From positions 1,228,841 to 1,292,840 of the forward strand of contig NZ_JAMTCH010000003.1 in the NCBI RefSeq assembly GCF_024171735.1: DNA of 64,000 bases, written 5' to 3'. Below the pieces are notes generated by a model that worked only from the letters and a program-made list of their open reading frames with translations, was not told where the DNA came from and ran no database searches. Below are positions 25,390 to 30,632 of the stretch, in pieces. The DNA is from Prauserella alba. GTDB lineage: Bacteria > Actinomycetota > Actinomycetes > Mycobacteriales > Pseudonocardiaceae. Positions within the stretch are counted from its first letter, which is position 1. Each line of letters starts with the position of its first letter. Made by a program: the position numbers and the translations under genes.

Positions 25390-25890
25390 GTGCGATTCTT
25401 CTACGACACCGAATTCATCGAGGACGGCGTGACCATCGACCTGGTGTCGATCGGTGTGGTGGACGAATCCGGACGCAGCTTCTACGCGGTCTCGACCGAG
25501 TTCGACCCGGACAAGGCCGGCAAGTGGGTCCGCGAGAACGTGCTGGACAAGCTGCCGTCACCCGCGGACAAGGCCTGGCGCAGCCGCGACCGCATCCGGG
25601 AGGACCTGCTCGAGTTCTTCGGCAAGCCGTCGGACGGTATCGAGCTGTGGGCCTGGTACGCCGCCTACGACCACGTGGCGCTGGCCCAGCTGTGGGGCGC
25701 GATGCCCACGTTGCCGCGGCAACTGCCCCGGTTCACGCGGGACCTGCGCCAGCGCTGGGAGGACGTCGGCAAGCCAACGCTGCCCAAGCAACCGGCCGAC
25801 GCCCACGACGCGCTCGCCGACGCTCGGCACAACCTCGAGCGGTGGAAGGTCATCGAACAGGTGCGCCTGCGCTCCGGCTTCGCCGGTTGA
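25390..25890 (+). CDS. Polyadenylate-specific 3'-exoribonuclease AS
   Basis: 166 aa DEDD-superfamily exoribonuclease, homologue of M. tuberculosis Rv2179c (RNase AS), which degrades adenylate-containing RNA. First motif RFFYDTEFIEDG (D6, E8); second YAAYDHVALAQLWG; third HDALADARHNLERW with the catalytic His and Asp. Length equals the family norm. Shortly downstream is a DAHP synthase gene in the opposite direction; in M. tuberculosis the neighbour is also a DAHP synthase, but class II and codirectional. Confidence 0.92.
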   Translation: MRFFYDTEFIEDGVTIDLVSIGVVDESGRSFYAVSTEFDPDKAGKWVRENVLDKLPSPADKAWRSRDRIREDLLEFFGKPSDGIELWAWYAAYDHVALAQLWGAMPTLPRQLPRFTRDLRQRWEDVGKPTLPKQPADAHDALADARHNLERWKVIEQVRLRSGFAG

Positions 25891-25945: not shown

Positions 25946-27082
25946 TCAGCCCCGGCGGGTGCGTACCGCTGCGGCGAGATCGTCGAGCAGCGACTCCGTC
26001 GTGGTCCAGTCCAGGCACGCATCGGTGATGCTGCGTCCGTAGTCGAGGTCGGCCGCGCGTCCGAGGGTCAGGTCCTGCCTGCCGTCGGCGAGGAAGCTCT
26101 CCAGCATGAGGCCGGAGATGCCGGGCTCGCCCGCCGCGATCCGCTCGGCCAGCTCCGTCACGACCCCGGCCTGGCGCACGTGGTCCTTACCGCTGTTGCC
26201 GTGGCTGGCGTCCACGACGACGCGTTCGGGCAGCTGGGCCTTCCGCAGGCGGGCGAGCGTGTCTGCGACCGTGTCGGGGTCGTGGTTCGGGCCCGTGCTG
26301 CCGCCGCGGAGGATCACGTGACAGTCCTCGTTGCCCGCCGTGGTCAGCAGCGCGGACACGCCGTCGGTGGTGATGCCGGGGAAGACGTGGCTCGCCGCGG
26401 CGGCCCGGGTGGCGTCGACCGCGACCTGCACGTCGCCTTCGGTGGAGTTCTTGATCCCCACCGGCATCGACAGCCCGCTGCAGAGCTGGCGGTGCACCTG
26501 ACTGGCCGCGGTGCGCGCGCCGACGGAGCCCCACGTCACGACGTCGGCGATGTACTGGGGAATGATCGGGTCGAGGAACTCGCAGCCGACCGGAAGGCCG
26601 AGCGCGGAGACGTCGAGCAGCAACTGGCGTGCGAGGCGCAGGCCCTTGTTGACGGCGAAGCGGCCGTCGAGGTCGGGATCGTTGATCAGGCCCTTCCACC
26701 CGAGCGTGGTGCGGGGCTTCTCGAAGTACACGCGCATCACGATGTGCAGCTCGCCGCTGACCTTCTCGGCGTGCGCGGCGAGTCTCCTGGCGTAGTCGAG
26801 TGCGGCGTCGGCGTCGTGGACCGAACAGGGTCCGGCGACCACCAGCAGGCGGTCGTCACGGCCGGACAGGATGTCGACGGCGGCCTCGCGGCCCGCGGTG
26901 ACCGTGCGGGCGACGGCGTCGTCGACGGGGTGTTCCTGGCGCAGCAGTGCGGGCGACATGAGCGGGCTGACGTGGGTGATGCGATGATCGTCCAGGCCGG
27001 TGCCCGCCTGGGAGGCCGCCGTGGCTGCCGGCATCGTTGCCGCCGTGGGATCGGGGGATGCCGTGGTCGGCAGAGTGGCCAT
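25946..27082 (-). CDS. 3-deoxy-7-phosphoheptulonate (DAHP) synthase, class I (AroFGH type)
   Basis: 378 aa. First enzyme of the shikimate pathway, condensing phosphoenolpyruvate with erythrose 4-phosphate. Class I-alpha signatures: LLVVAGPCSVHD, MRVYFEKPRTTLGWKGLINDP, VGARTAASQVHR, GIKNSTEGD, HVILRGG and VVDASHGNSGKDH. This is the E. coli AroF/G/H type, not the class II enzyme typical of actinobacteria, and the isozyme symbol cannot be assigned from sequence. The ATG at 27082 has AAAGGAAG 8 bp upstream. The first 40 residues are Ala/Thr/Pro-rich and probably flexible. A leader peptide and hairpins upstream suggest attenuation. Confidence 0.94.
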   Translation of the reverse strand: MATLPTTASPDPTAATMPAATAASQAGTGLDDHRITHVSPLMSPALLRQEHPVDDAVARTVTAGREAAVDILSGRDDRLLVVAGPCSVHDADAALDYARRLAAHAEKVSGELHIVMRVYFEKPRTTLGWKGLINDPDLDGRFAVNKGLRLARQLLLDVSALGLPVGCEFLDPIIPQYIADVVTWGSVGARTAASQVHRQLCSGLSMPVGIKNSTEGDVQVAVDATRAAAASHVFPGITTDGVSALLTTAGNEDCHVILRGGSTGPNHDPDTVADTLARLRKAQLPERVVVDASHGNSGKDHVRQAGVVTELAERIAAGEPGISGLMLESFLADGRQDLTLGRAADLDYGRSITDACLDWTTTESLLDDLAAAVRTRRG

Positions 27083-27120
27083 CGGGGTGACTTCCTTTCC
27101 GCAAGCCGCCCCGGAAACCA

Positions 27121-27200
27121 CCGAGCCGGCTCGACGTCCGGCTCGAAGTGGGTGTGGTCAGCGCACGGTCACGCCGACCGGCCCACTCCGGGCCGGCCAG
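27121..27200 (-). promoter_or_regulatory. Candidate transcription attenuator of DAHP synthase gene
   Basis: On the minus strand, hairpin A pairs 27200-27190 with 27184-27174 (11 pairs, two or three G-T). It begins at the last Trp codon of the leader peptide. Hairpin B pairs 27145-27138 (CGAGCCGG) with 27129-27122 and is followed by GGTGGTTT, a short T-bearing end. The distal arm of A (GGGCCGG) can also pair with the distal arm of B with one G-T pair. This gives exclusive structures as in peptide-dependent attenuators. Folding was done by eye. Confidence 0.6.
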
Positions 27201-27235
27201 GTAAACCAGTAATAGCGCTGCATGTCCTGGACCAT
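27158..27235 (-). CDS. Aromatic-rich leader peptide upstream of DAHP synthase
   Basis: 25 codons: starts MVQDMQ, then RYYWFTWP, and ends VGVTVR before TGA at 27160-27158. Five aromatic residues (Tyr, Tyr, Trp, Phe, Trp) fall within six codons (27214-27197), the three end products of the pathway opened by the downstream enzyme. A start at the second Met (27223) is also possible; ribosome sites for both are weak. The gap to the DAHP synthase start is 75 bp and holds a terminator-like hairpin. Too short to be a functional protein; a ribosome-stalling sensor is the natural reading. Confidence 0.7.
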   Translation of the reverse strand: MVQDMQRYYWFTWPARSGPVGVTVR

Positions 27236-27306
27236 AGCAGAGGCTAACCTCGCTTTATCGGTCCAGTGACCCATGTCTACCTCGGACGGGACTGCGCGCC
27301 GGGCAC

Positions 27307-27714
27307 TCAGGAGAAGAGCAGGGCTGTGTCCGTCAGGGTGGCGACAACGACGCTGACCACCAGCAACGCGCTCCGGTGTCGCCACCGCGATGGTAATCGC
27401 CCCGCGCGCATCCCCGCGTGAACGGCGACTCCCAAGCAGCCGACGACGACGGCCGCGCCACCTGCGATCAGCGGGATGCTCGGGCCGGTACACGACACTG
27501 AGTCCGCCGTGCAGGCGCGGAACGGGCCGCCTCGTCCGCTCGCGTCGGAGGATCCTGCGGCCAGCAGCGCGAGCAGGAATCCGAAACCGTGCACCGGAGC
27601 GAGCAGGACCATCAGCGCCACCGTTGTGGTGCCTCCTTTCAGGGGTCGCGGCGTGGCGCCGCGCCGCGGGTCCGCGTATTCGGGCGGTGGGTCGAGAGGC
27701 GGGACATCCGGCAT
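27307..27714 (-). CDS. Small membrane protein, three predicted helices
   Basis: 135 aa. Starts MPDVPPLDPPPEY (ATG at 27714). Helices near TVALMVLLAPVHGFGFLLALLA, SIPLIAGGAAVVVGCLGVAVH and ALLVVSVVVATLTDTALLF. A short loop between the first two holds two Cys (RACTADSVSC), possibly an extracytoplasmic disulfide. A longer frame to 27816 lacks any ribosome site, and the chosen ATG has none either, so the start is uncertain. No family recognised. Confidence 0.6.
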   Translation of the reverse strand: MPDVPPLDPPPEYADPRRGATPRPLKGGTTTVALMVLLAPVHGFGFLLALLAAGSSDASGRGGPFRACTADSVSCTGPSIPLIAGGAAVVVGCLGVAVHAGMRAGRLPSRWRHRSALLVVSVVVATLTDTALLFS

Positions 27715-27848
27715 ACCGCGAAGATCGGCTCGGGAGCGGGTGTCGTTAGCCGCGGCGTATCGATGTCGTTGCCTGCTGCACCGATCCAGTGATGTGTGTC
27801 TATCCTGGGCGCACACAGTGAGGTGCGTACTGCGGAGGGTGGAACTCG

Positions 27849-28874
27849 ATGCGCGTGGGTGTCCTGACCGGTGGCGGCGACTGTCCCGGACTGAACGCGG
27901 TGATCCGCGCGGTGACCCTCAAGGGCACCGGGGAACGGGGCTGGGATGTCGTCGGATTCCGTGACGGCTGGCGTGGCCCGCTCACCGGATCGATGCGCCC
28001 GCTCGGTGTCGACGACGTCGAGCCGATCCTCACCCGCGGCGGCACGATCCTGGGCTCGTCCCGTACCAACCCGTACGCCGACGGAGGCGGAGCGGAACGG
28101 ATCCTGGAGGTGCTGGCCGCGGAGCACGTCGACGCGCTGATCGCCATCGGCGGCGAGGACACGCTCGGAGTCGCGGAACGGCTGTGCCGGGAAGGCGTGA
28201 ACGTGGTCGGCGTCCCGAAGACGATCGACAACGACCTCGGCGCCACCGATTACACGTTCGGCTTCGACACCGCGGTGCACATCGCCACCGAAGCGATCGA
28301 CCGGCTCCACACCACGGCGGAATCACACCACCGGGCCCTGGTCGTCGAGGTGATGGGCAGGCACGCCGGGTGGATCGCACTCCACTCCGGTATGGCGGGC
28401 GGGGCGAGCGTCATCCTCGTGCCGGAACGGCCGTTCTCGATCGAGCAGGTGGCCGGGTGGGTGCAGTCCCGGTTCGAACGTGAGTACGCGCCGATCGTCG
28501 TCGTGGCGGAGGGGGCACAGCCCGCTGACGGGGCCGAGGTGCTGCAGACCGGCGAGAAGGACGCGTTCGGGCACGTGCGGCTCGGCGGCGTCGGCCAGTG
28601 GCTGGCCGACGAGCTCGCCCGGCGGACCGGCAAGGAGTCGCGCGCGGTGGTCCTCGGGCACACCCAGCGCGGCGGCACGCCGACCGCCTACGACCGCGTG
28701 CTCGCCACGCGATTCGGCTTGCACGCCGTGGACGCGGTCGCCGACGGGGATTTCGGCACGATGACGGCTCTGCGCGGCACCGACATCGTCCGCGTGCCGC
28801 TGACGGAGGCCACGGCAGAGCTGAAGACCGTTCCCGCCGAGCGCTACGCCGAGGCGGAGGTCTTCTTCGGCTGA
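27849..28874 (+). CDS. pfkA: 6-phosphofructokinase, predicted pyrophosphate-dependent
   Basis: 341 aa. Phosphorylates fructose 6-phosphate. GVLTGGGDCPGLNAVIR is the phosphate-donor loop. Numbering matches E. coli PfkA: catalytic Asp127 (TIDND), donor-site Asp104 (GGEDT) and Lys124 (PKTIDND). ATP enzymes have Gly104 and usually Gly124; Asp104 with Lys124 is the signature of PPi-dependent enzymes such as that of Amycolatopsis methanolica, of similar length. GGAGGG precedes the ATG. A TATCCT -10 lies at 27801-27806. The reaction may therefore be reversible and serve gluconeogenesis as well. Confidence 0.93.
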   Translation: MRVGVLTGGGDCPGLNAVIRAVTLKGTGERGWDVVGFRDGWRGPLTGSMRPLGVDDVEPILTRGGTILGSSRTNPYADGGGAERILEVLAAEHVDALIAIGGEDTLGVAERLCREGVNVVGVPKTIDNDLGATDYTFGFDTAVHIATEAIDRLHTTAESHHRALVVEVMGRHAGWIALHSGMAGGASVILVPERPFSIEQVAGWVQSRFEREYAPIVVVAEGAQPADGAEVLQTGEKDAFGHVRLGGVGQWLADELARRTGKESRAVVLGHTQRGGTPTAYDRVLATRFGLHAVDAVADGDFGTMTALRGTDIVRVPLTEATAELKTVPAERYAEAEVFFG

Positions 28875-28879
28875 TGCCG

Positions 28880-28907
28880 CCCGCCGGTCCGGACGTGAAC
28901 CGGCGGG
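28880..28907 (+). terminator. Hairpin terminator after pfkA
   Basis: 9-bp perfect stem: 28880-28888 (CCCGCCGGT) with 28899-28907, loop of 10 nt, starting 6 bp after the pfkA stop. Confidence 0.55.
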
Positions 28908-29101
28908 ACGGCGGGGCGGGCGGTTCGGATCGGGTCACGAGCCCGTCCGCGGCGACGGCGGGCCCCATCGGCCGCGGTCGCACGCTGGTCGAGGCGCCGG
29001 CAGATCCTGATCTACGCTGGGCGGGAGGAACCCCCGCAGCTGCCGGCGCGGTGTGCCCGGCCGGGCGCCTCCGAGTCGGGGGCCGGCGACGAGGAGGAGC
29101 G

Positions 29102-29791
29102 GTGTCCGCTGGGAAGCTCCGTACGGATTCGCGTGCCCCGCTGCGCGAGCAGGTGCGCAACACGCTGCACGCACGCATCGCCGAGGGAGAGCTCCGGCCG
29201 GGTGATCGCCTGCTGGAGTACGACCTCGCCGACGAGTTCGGCATCTCCCGGGTTCCGGTGCGCGAGGCGATTCGCATGATGCAGAGCGAGGGACTGCTGG
29301 AGGTGCTCCCTCGCCGGGGCGGCGTGTTCGTCCGGAGTCTGAATCGGCGCGAGATGGAAGAACTCTTCGACGTGCGGGAAGCACTCGAGGTGCTCGCGGC
29401 GCGGCGGGCGGTCGAGCAGACGGGCCCGGAGGGCGCAGCGCGCATGGGCGAACTCGCCGAGCAGGCCCGCGCGGCGCTGCGGGCGGGGGAGACCGAAGAC
29501 ATGTTCCAGGCCAACGCGGCGTTCCACGACGAACTCGTCGCGCTGGCCGGCAACGGACTGCTGATGTCGATGCTGGAACCGCTGCACGGCCGGCTGGCCT
29601 GGTTGTTCCGGTTGAATCTCGAGCCGGAACGCGTGTGCCGCGAGCACGAGGAGTTGCACGCCGCCATCGTTCGGGGCGATGCCGAGGCCGCCGCCGAGGT
29701 CGCTCTGCGGCACGTCCGCTCCAGTCGGCGGATGGTGCTCGACCACATCGTGGACGGTGTCCCGGACGCGCCGGATCCCGGCGGCGTCTGA
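29102..29791 (+). CDS. GntR-family (FadR/FCD subfamily) transcriptional regulator
   Basis: 229 aa. Winged helix at the N-terminus (APLREQVRNTLHARIAEGELRPGDRLLEYDLADEFGISRVPVREAIRMMQSEGLL region) followed by an all-helical FCD effector domain with metal-type residues (FDVREALE, FHDELVALAGN, HEELHAAIVRGD, HVRSSRRM). The GTG at 29102 has GAGGAGGAG just upstream. Convergent with the racemase-transporter operon (29838-32114), whose promoter holds a GTATAC-centred inverted repeat of the kind FCD regulators bind. Control of that operon is inferred. Confidence 0.9.
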   Translation: MSAGKLRTDSRAPLREQVRNTLHARIAEGELRPGDRLLEYDLADEFGISRVPVREAIRMMQSEGLLEVLPRRGGVFVRSLNRREMEELFDVREALEVLAARRAVEQTGPEGAARMGELAEQARAALRAGETEDMFQANAAFHDELVALAGNGLLMSMLEPLHGRLAWLFRLNLEPERVCREHEELHAAIVRGDAEAAAEVALRHVRSSRRMVLDHIVDGVPDAPDPGGV

Positions 29792-29837: not shown

Positions 29838-30569
29838 TCACACCTGCTGCTGCGGCGGGGGCCAGCCGGTCATGTTCTTGCCGCGCCGCGGCGCGTACGT
29901 GCGGACCTTCGAGGTGCTCAGTTCGAGGCGCACGAGTGACTCGGCGATCGTGACCGCCGCGGTCACCCCGTCGACGACGGGGGCCCCGGTGCGTTCCACG
30001 ACACGTTCGGCGAGCCCCGACATCCCGCCGCATCCCAGGCAGATGACCTCCGCCCGGTCGTCACGCACCGCGGCGACCGCCTGTTCGGCGATGGCGTCGA
30101 CGGCGGCGTGCGGGTCGCGCTCGAGGTCCAACACGGCCATCCCGCTGGCACGGACCGACGCGCACCGGGCGTCGAGGCCGGCGAGGGTGAGCCGGTCCTC
30201 GATAAGCGGAACGGTGCGGTCCAGGCTGGTCACGACCGAGTAGGTGCGGCCGAGGAACTGGGCGGTGCTCGCGGCCGCTTCGGTGATGTCGACGACGGGG
30301 ACGTCGAACAGTTCCTGCAGGCCCTCGCGGCCGTGCTCGCCGTAGCCGGCCTGGATGATGGCGTCGAACGGCTCGGGGTAGGCCCGAACCCGTTCCATCA
30401 CCGCGATCGCGGCGAGGTGGCTCTCGTAGTTGCCCTCGACCGACTCCGCACCGAAGGACGGCGTCAACGCGACGATCTCGGTGTCGGCCGACGCAGCGGT
30501 CGCCGCCTGCTTTCCGATGGATTCGGTGATCGAGGCAGTGGTGTTGACGTTCACGACAAGAATGCGCAT
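29838..30569 (-). CDS. Hydantoin/allantoin racemase-like protein (Asp/Glu racemase superfamily)
   Basis: 243 aa. Begins MRILVVNVNTTASITESIG, typical of the HyuA/HpxA group. ICLGCGGMSGLAE carries the second catalytic Cys. The first, in canonical enzymes IACFGDPG, is replaced by Gly75 in IIQAGYGEHG, so a two-base racemase mechanism is unlikely unless this subfamily works differently. The ATG at 30569 has GAGGGA 9 bp upstream. 63 bp downstream of an NCS1 transporter gene and surely cotranscribed, suggesting uptake and processing of a hydantoin, ureide or related ring compound. Confidence 0.85.
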   Translation of the reverse strand: MRILVVNVNTTASITESIGKQAATAASADTEIVALTPSFGAESVEGNYESHLAAIAVMERVRAYPEPFDAIIQAGYGEHGREGLQELFDVPVVDITEAAASTAQFLGRTYSVVTSLDRTVPLIEDRLTLAGLDARCASVRASGMAVLDLERDPHAAVDAIAEQAVAAVRDDRAEVICLGCGGMSGLAERVVERTGAPVVDGVTAAVTIAESLVRLELSTSKVRTYAPRRGKNMTGWPPPQQQV

Positions 30570-30632
30570 CGCTGGTTGTCCCTCACGGCTTTCCGGTTTC
30601 GTCGAGGCGGTCACGGTTGGTCGGAGCCGTGG

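Follow-up and report, generated by a model that had tools for sequence, protein, structure and literature searches.

In the window, by which we mean the whole stretch of 64,000 nucleotides that was analysed, the class I DAHP synthase gene has upstream of it a short frame containing Tyr, Trp and Phe codons. Sequence comparison indicates that this frame is a real and conserved leader peptide gene that starts at 27223 and is probably read from a leaderless mRNA. The leader is a Trp-containing variant of the known AroR-type attenuator. We judge it quite probable that it acts as a ribosome-controlled attenuator of this type for class I DAHP synthase, with a helix between the leader (region 1) and the stretch after its stop codon (region 3) as the switch, whatever the output may be.

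The DAHP synthase reads from an ATG at 27082 on the minus strand and was the single class I match in its own genome (E 0.001), which also carries two class II DAHP synthases (C1:741197-742483 and 89203-90483). The next gene downstream, RNase AS (25390-25890, plus strand), is convergent. Upstream, a 169-aa frame (27307-27816, minus strand) ends 70 nt before the -10 box of the leader on the same strand, and Pfam and NCBIfam searches gave nothing for it at E 0.001. Further neighbours are Phosphofructokinase (27849-28874, plus), a GntR/FCD regulator (28598-29791, plus) and an Asp/Glu/hydantoin racemase (29838-30614, minus). The features of the region are collected in the table.

Table. Features of the leader region and the class I DAHP synthase gene in the window
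Feature	Coordinates	Strand	Remarks
-10 box TATGGT, extended TGCTATGGT	27231..27236	(-)	7 nt before leader start
Leader peptide gene MQRYYWFTWPARSGPVGVTVR*, 21 codons, probably leaderless	27158..27223	(-)	conserved start, second ATG
Aromatic codons TAT TAC TGG TTT	27203..27214	(-)	Tyr4 Tyr5 Trp6 Phe7
Hairpin 1:2, 5' arm GGCCGGCCC	27190..27198	(-)	overlaps switch region 1
Hairpin 1:2, 3' arm GGGCCGGTC	27176..27184	(-)	
Switch region 1 CCGGCCCGGAGTGGG	27182..27196	(-)	computed pairing with 27152-27138, ribosome held at Trp6
Region 3 CCCACTTCGAGCCGG	27138..27152	(-)	after leader stop; partner is region 1, or region 4 by its 3' half
Region 4 CCGGCTCG	27122..27129	(-)	3' arm of hairpin 3:4; also able to pair with region 5
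Region 5 CCGGGGCGGCTTGCG	27100..27114	(-)	pairs with region 4 or with 27093-27083
Hairpin holding Shine-Dalgarno GGAAAGGAAG (27100-27091)	27083..27113	(-)	
Class I DAHP synthase, 378 aa	25946..27082	(-)	TIGR00034 476.7 bits; PF00793

A conserved aromatic leader and its start

The minus-strand frame MVQDMQRYYWFTWPARSGPVGVTVR* runs from 27235 to 27158 and ends 75 nt before the DAHP synthase ATG. An earlier note had read it as a 25-codon peptide with Tyr-Tyr-Trp-Phe-Thr-Trp; the aromatic run is present, but the start at 27235 gives way to the conserved one at the second ATG. The ATG at 27235 is not the leader start since it lies inside TATGGT (27236-27231), at the site of the TAnnnT box of relatives. 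In these a TGnTAnnnT box stands ahead of the leader start codon at a nearly fixed distance, the spacing from the TAnnnT box being 7 nt in 115 of the 145 leaders compared, 6 nt in 22 and 8 nt in 4, and T[AG]nnnT with a spacing of 6-8 nt occurred in 141 of the 145. Among up to 87 leaders of the first set described below, the frequencies were 77% for T at -13, 76% for A at -12, 86% for T at -8 and 94% for C at -1. With the first ATG within the -10 box and the distance from box to start fixed in relatives, the leader mRNA is probably leaderless, and we infer that the promoter is used and that transcription starts at or close beside 27223. A promoter search for a two-hexamer promoter gave no match at the leader of the window. 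Leaderless leader peptides are known from Streptomyces lividans, as the accessible text of PMC8079986 describes. Near the leader start CAGCGC (27220-27215) can pair with GCGCTG at the stop (27164-27159) and so close the whole leader, a pairing nearly invariant in class A (defined below; 96.4% of cells, five outer pairs).

The first set comprised 98 loci (28 actinobacterial ones among 80 named loci, plus 70 places, the 30 best and 40 picked below them), or 97 without L148, which had no match. Leaders were present in 87 of the 97; they were required to contain PA or AP, and the conservation of this dipeptide is thus partly due to selection. Those without a leader were L014, L016, L034, L054, L090, L109, L111, L127, L131 and L150, with the motif of L090 and L127 there but inside a longer frame. 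The peptide took the form [VM]QR-Y(F/Y)WF(S/T)xPAxGG...R in Amycolatopsis, Pseudonocardia, Rhodococcus, Antrihabitans and the window's own family, YWRFxxAPGGA in Mycobacterium, Dietzia and Williamsia, SYRWFRQPA in Micromonospora, WYWRFTPAP in Isoptericola and SYWRFFEWPA in Kribbella. Leaders with GAGCC(G/A)G and CGGCTC within 25 nt were assigned to class A, to which the window belongs. This class held 66 of the 87, namely 56 of the 63 from the window's family and ten named ones from Amycolatopsis, Pseudonocardia, Rhodococcus, Antrihabitans and Actinomycetospora. Outside it in the window's family were L133, L136, L139, L141, L143, L144 and L147, with a terminator in L141 and L143. A covariance model (R1) of 51 class A sequences gave one hit in the window's own genome at E 2.9e-18 and the next at 0.31; no other gene of that genome was thus found to carry the element upstream.

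A class-wide draw covered 394 genomes of the class, of which 78 carried a class I DAHP synthase at E 1e-60, and 76 new loci were taken. Model R1 gave at least 10 hits in the 394 genomes; sampling was instead led by the protein, with 760 nt searched per locus. A leader with Tyr, Trp and Phe codons preceded class I DAHP synthase in 46 of the 76 loci, distributed by family as f2 20/20, f22 17/20, f3 2/2, f39 2/2, f6 2/2, f29 1/3, f47 1/1 and f48 1/1, with none in f19 (0/23), f21 (0/1) and f4 (0/1). In the genus of G573, taken as Corynebacterium from a C. glutamicum primer match, 12 of 14 class I loci had the leader.

Tyr, Trp and Phe occurred together in 122 of the 145 leaders, as proposed for this one peptide, while 19 had Tyr and Phe, three Trp and Phe and one Tyr and Trp. 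A few genomes are represented twice among the 145 (L003/L095, L064/L230 and L019/L206 are examples); L252 (no leader) and L253 (a weak frame) were not counted as leaders, and L256 and L257 stand outside the number. TTT and TAT would be expected to be rare in such GC-rich genomes. The control codons of the 145 leaders (27214-27203 in the window) were mostly TTT (155 vs 75 TTC) and TAT (146 vs 21 TAC), and the codon of Phe7 was TTT in 51 of 51 class A leaders.

General family collections yielded no family for the leader. Rfam gave no match above the gathering score in the window and one, a tRNA, in 14 related loci, and at E up to 10 no score on the leader region came near the cut-off of any family. 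NCBIfam and Pfam profiles matched none of 6 leader peptides at E up to 10. Aromatic leader frames were also seen before class I DAHP synthase in 13 of 56 other named loci (L041, L062, L032, L055, L052, L056, L073, L074, L059, L080, L035, L057 and L049), the hosts being Xanthomonas, Dyella, Burkholderia, Devosia, other Proteobacteria and one Chloroflexi-type MAG. In 8 of the 9 of these loci that were read closely, a GGCGG-like piece of the leader, in many cases CTGGCGG, appears by eye to match the 5' arm of a T-run terminator hairpin as its complement.

Alternative helices and their comparative support

Both hairpins of the earlier note were recovered. The first, at the last Trp codon, has 11 pairs in the fold of a 140-nt stretch and 9 when folded alone, and the second (27145-27122) is present as described and corresponds to hairpin 3:4. 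The 140-nt stretch folds better than its shuffles (z -4.4, 0/200), and the region of the second hairpin alone gave z -2.0 (9/200 shuffles).

Pairing was compared across 42 dissimilar leaders by a swap test, in which each leader was paired with its own downstream stretch or with a foreign one under 5000 shuffles; for 1:3, region 1 was taken as the 30 nt after the last aromatic codon and set against the 60 nt after the stop. The mean stem of helix 1:3 was 9.26 with the own and 7.28 with the foreign stretch (0/5000 shuffles), that of 3:4 was 6.90 and 6.01 (0/5000) and that of 1:2 was 5.10 and 4.80 (102/5000). The pairing of the two distal arms (2:4), which had been put forward as the antiterminator, was 5.88 with the own and 5.99 with the foreign partner, with 3724 of 5000 shuffles at least as high, and was rejected for want of comparative support. 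Helix 1:3, between the leader after its aromatic codons and the stretch after its stop, reads CGGAGTGGG:CCCACTTCG in the window and was found with changed but still matching pairs as GGCTCCGGGTG:CACCCGGAGCC, GGCTCTGGAGG:CCTTCAGAGCC, GCTCCAGG:CCTGGAGC, GGCTTCGGC:GCCGAAGCC and AAGGCTTGCGG:CCGCAAGCCTT. For 11 of the 42 leaders the best partner lay farther downstream, beginning over 21 nt past the stop; in L243 this was the leader's own region 3, whereas nine class A leaders and L133 had it in region 4 or 5. Assignment of region 3 by eye also disagreed with the best stem in L015 and L251.

Within class A (51 sequences) the helices 1:2, 3:4 and CAGCG:CGCTG hardly vary, and no covariation signal above shuffles was obtained. 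As these helices are nearly invariant there is no covariation to count in the class, and the 1:3 signal comes mainly from other families. Further downstream, the 24 distinct combinations of 4:5 in class A had 59 of 96 cells paired vs 51.5 by shuffling (19/5000), the signal lying in the first two positions, and for region 5 against the nucleotides that follow the Shine-Dalgarno sequence (5:6) 15 of 44 had at least 5 pairs vs 6.4 shuffled (0/2000). Five of the 56 class A sequences folded below, those without a clear region 5, were omitted from the counts of 4:5, 5:6 and Shine-Dalgarno access.

At the level of sequence, then, the leader, its start and the helices 1:3 and 3:4 are shown by comparison. 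The first-set, class-wide and swap-test comparisons together bear out the claim that this class I DAHP synthase gene has in front of it an aromatic leader that is conserved and can form alternative hairpins. As anatomy the opposition of 1:3 and 3:4 is well supported, which does not extend to its readout.

Predicted switching and candidate outputs

Ribosome states were represented by keeping the nucleotides under the ribosome single-stranded during folding. The leader RNA of the window folded into 1:2 and 3:4 both when free of ribosomes and when a ribosome stood at the stop. With the A site on Trp6 it formed 1:3 and no 3:4, followed by 4:5 and a partly opened Shine-Dalgarno stretch. Stalling at Phe7 kept 3:4 wholly or partly and at Trp9 wholly, while Tyr4 and Tyr5 gave 1:3 in two of three folding runs with an outcome that depended on the transcript end. 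These results lend no support to stalling being equally effective on any aromatic codon, as Trp6 was best, Tyr4 and Tyr5 varied with the transcript end, Phe7 acted partly or not and Trp9 did not. In 56 class A leaders the mean 1:3 pairing was 1.3 in the free state, 0.3 with a ribosome at the stop and 7.2-8.4 on stalling. Hairpin 3:4 was missing in 4 of the 56 without a ribosome and in 3 with one at the stop, and was lost in 19, 10, 12 and 0 on stalling at codons -3, -2, -1 and 0 from Phe. A choice between two hairpins by ribosome position, the hallmark of trp-type attenuators, was computed for Trp6 of the window and, by loss of 3:4, for 0 to 19 of the 56 in class A depending on the codon. The ribosome-dependent switch in the window is thus a predicted one, computed only; stalling itself, and the direction and kind of output, we infer.

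The predicted relay to the gene varied with transcript length. When the transcript reached 6 nt past the start codon, 4:5 formed in 35 of 51 sequences with region 3 taken and in 8 with region 3 free; in shorter transcripts it formed in 51 of 51 with region 3 taken vs 32 and 39 with region 3 free. With 6 nt of the gene included, Shine-Dalgarno access rose from 0.47 to 0.59 (higher in 27 of 51, lower in 2), and with region 5 shuffled as a control the change was -0.007. With 15 nt of the gene access moved from 0.48 to 0.52 and with 30 nt from 0.50 to 0.51; at equilibrium the effect on translation thus fades in longer transcripts. For the window itself access went from 0.29 to 0.45 with 6 nt and was unchanged with 15 or 30.

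We propose that RNA polymerase would begin on the leader start codon (27223) or immediately beside it, with ribosomes loading on the leaderless end. When charged aromatic tRNAs are plentiful a ribosome would reach the leader stop and cover the start of region 3, hairpins 1:2 and 3:4 would form and the gene would be held down. A ribosome waiting on the aromatic codons, above all Trp6, would let 1:3 pair and block 3:4, and expression would rise. In the window the freed region 4 might then take region 5 from the Shine-Dalgarno hairpin, so that translation initiation would be controlled. Such control is the somewhat likelier output in the window's class, a weakly supported suggestion to which we give rather less than an even chance.

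The same sensor could instead work by classical transcription attenuation, with 3:4 as a terminator that has an imperfect T tail (GGTGGTTTCC) and is prevented by stalling via 1:3. This is consistent with the GC-rich stem of 3:4 and its competition with 1:3 in the window, and with the many other families that have intrinsic terminators at the matching place, a T-run hairpin (e.g. GGCAG...CTGCC-TTT) between regions 3 and 4. A lax terminator script, which misses near forms readable by eye, the Corynebacterium ones among them, found a site in 35 of the 145 leaders including the window's own 3:4 (tail TGGTTTCC). The description of this hairpin as terminator-like finds backing there, but apart from this marginal site the script found no terminator in class A, and the matching hairpin of the sister species (L082-L086) was not accepted. 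A terminator search found no intrinsic terminator in 26950-27450, and 3:4 has no T run; the second hairpin is unsupported as an intrinsic terminator in this genome. Folding of 12 terminator-bearing leaders gave the terminator in every ribosome state, with 1:3 formed in 9 of 12 without a ribosome and in 11 of 12 with one at the stop. The same held for the leader of L256, which resembles that of C. glutamicum. Relief of such terminators by stalling is thus unexplained by folding, a point against the main proposal. We regard transcription attenuation in the window as rather unlikely. In L028, L170, L176, L183 and L242 the helix of regions 3 and 4 encloses the terminator hairpin; in these five the polymerase comes to region 4 later than to the terminator, and the conservation of region 4 is explained only if it acts in read-through mRNA.

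A Rho-dependent output of the same sensor would account for the missing T run. A ribosome that has finished would leave the C-rich stretch CCACACCCAC after the stop exposed to Rho, and a stalled one would let 1:3 hide it. Class A sequences do show a stretch rich in C and poor in G between the end of the leader and 3:4, but at about 12-20 nt it is short, and we consider this output distinctly improbable. The very similar peptides of Pseudonocardiaceae and Rhodococcus might suggest that the conserved peptide itself arrests the ribosome in response to an aromatic compound. Against this, four codons of the tail (CCG, GCC, GGG and the final CGC) were each identical in 51 of 51 class A leaders, third base included, with R, P or L as the residue between them (PA was a selection requirement, its codons were not). 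Wobble bases that stay invariant while an inner residue varies point to a constraint on the nucleotides, as in RNA pairing, and not on the peptide. In other families the tail residues change with the RNA pairing (PAPGG, APGGA, LALEG). We consider peptide arrest very improbable. Short frames are common in this GC-rich stretch of the window, and the leader could in principle be a chance frame in a GC-rich intergenic region. Among 414 control windows of 660 nt each, taken from sequence flanking 23 named loci, 2 contained a frame of this kind together with a -10 box (16 when the box was not required) vs the 46 of 76 loci of the class-wide draw, and with the covariation this comparison refutes chance, to which we assign practically no probability.

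Relation to known attenuators and implications

The AroR leader of aroF (cg1129) in Corynebacterium glutamicum was reportedly first described by Neshat et al. in 2014. In the accessible portions of PMC4046766 and PMC11802643 AroR is a Phe-Tyr-Phe leader upstream of aroF, whose transcription goes up under Phe limitation with no effect of Tyr. L256, from a genome with the published aroR primer site, carries MFAARFYFMSGSGASPRQLAISCAT, the box TTAAGGT, the pairing GGCTCCGG:CCGGAGTC and a terminator with six T. Shared with the window are the class I DAHP synthase with a short aromatic frame directly upstream, the -10 box just before the start (a TAnnnT-like box with the start 6-8 nt after it) and a region 1 in the leader that matches region 3 after the stop. 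AroR differs in Phe-Tyr-Phe without Trp and in the six-T terminator directly after region 3, whereas the window has Tyr-Tyr-Trp-Phe, no T run and the Shine-Dalgarno hairpin. The terminator hairpin with a T run that marks both AroR-type and trp-type attenuators was not found in 26950-27450, so that the window has a variant that falls short of the complete C. glutamicum form. Some leaders of the Corynebacterium genus (5 of 12) have Trp before RFYF. The combined sensor had been called unusual, a claim that the existence of AroR before aroF weakens.

In the E. coli trp leader a stall masks region 1 and region 2 is freed for region 3. A stalled ribosome would select between alternative hairpins in the window as well, with the difference that here the part of the leader following the control codons is itself the partner of the sequence beyond the stop. 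Leader attenuators of trp, ilv, leu and cys in Actinobacteria were surveyed by Seliverstov et al. 2005 (PMC1262725), and in the accessible part of that survey they share with the window a leader peptide with end-product codons, some being without clear terminators. The same part reports no conserved RNA structures upstream of phenylalanine and tyrosine operons and does not contain the terms aroF, aroG or DAHP. No description of the Pseudonocardiaceae leader was recognised in the literature searched, in which subscription journals were thinly covered, nor did the searches turn up expression data for a class A genome. The accessible parts of two papers, one on Chlamydia and one on mycobacterial EPSPS, contained nothing on such leaders.

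DAHP synthase is the committing step through which carbon reaches every aromatic amino acid as well as many of the antibiotics made by these genera. If the proposal is true, a conserved leader that reads all three end products via the charging of tRNAs would account for the adjustment of a single enzyme gene to three products. The leader would also be a target for engineering, and replacement of aroR is already in use in C. glutamicum according to the accessible text of PMC7356990. It is conceivable, as a tentative view that we hold at less than even confidence, that an old leader family senses Tyr, Trp and Phe over much of the Actinomycetes with 1:3 as its one switch helix and that its output was exchanged in evolution, being a terminator in Mycobacterium, Micromonospora, Kribbella and Corynebacterium vs a Shine-Dalgarno relay of 3:4, 4:5 and 5:6 in Rhodococcus and most Pseudonocardiaceae. 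These leaders may thereby offer a natural series in which the sensor stays constant while the output module changes.
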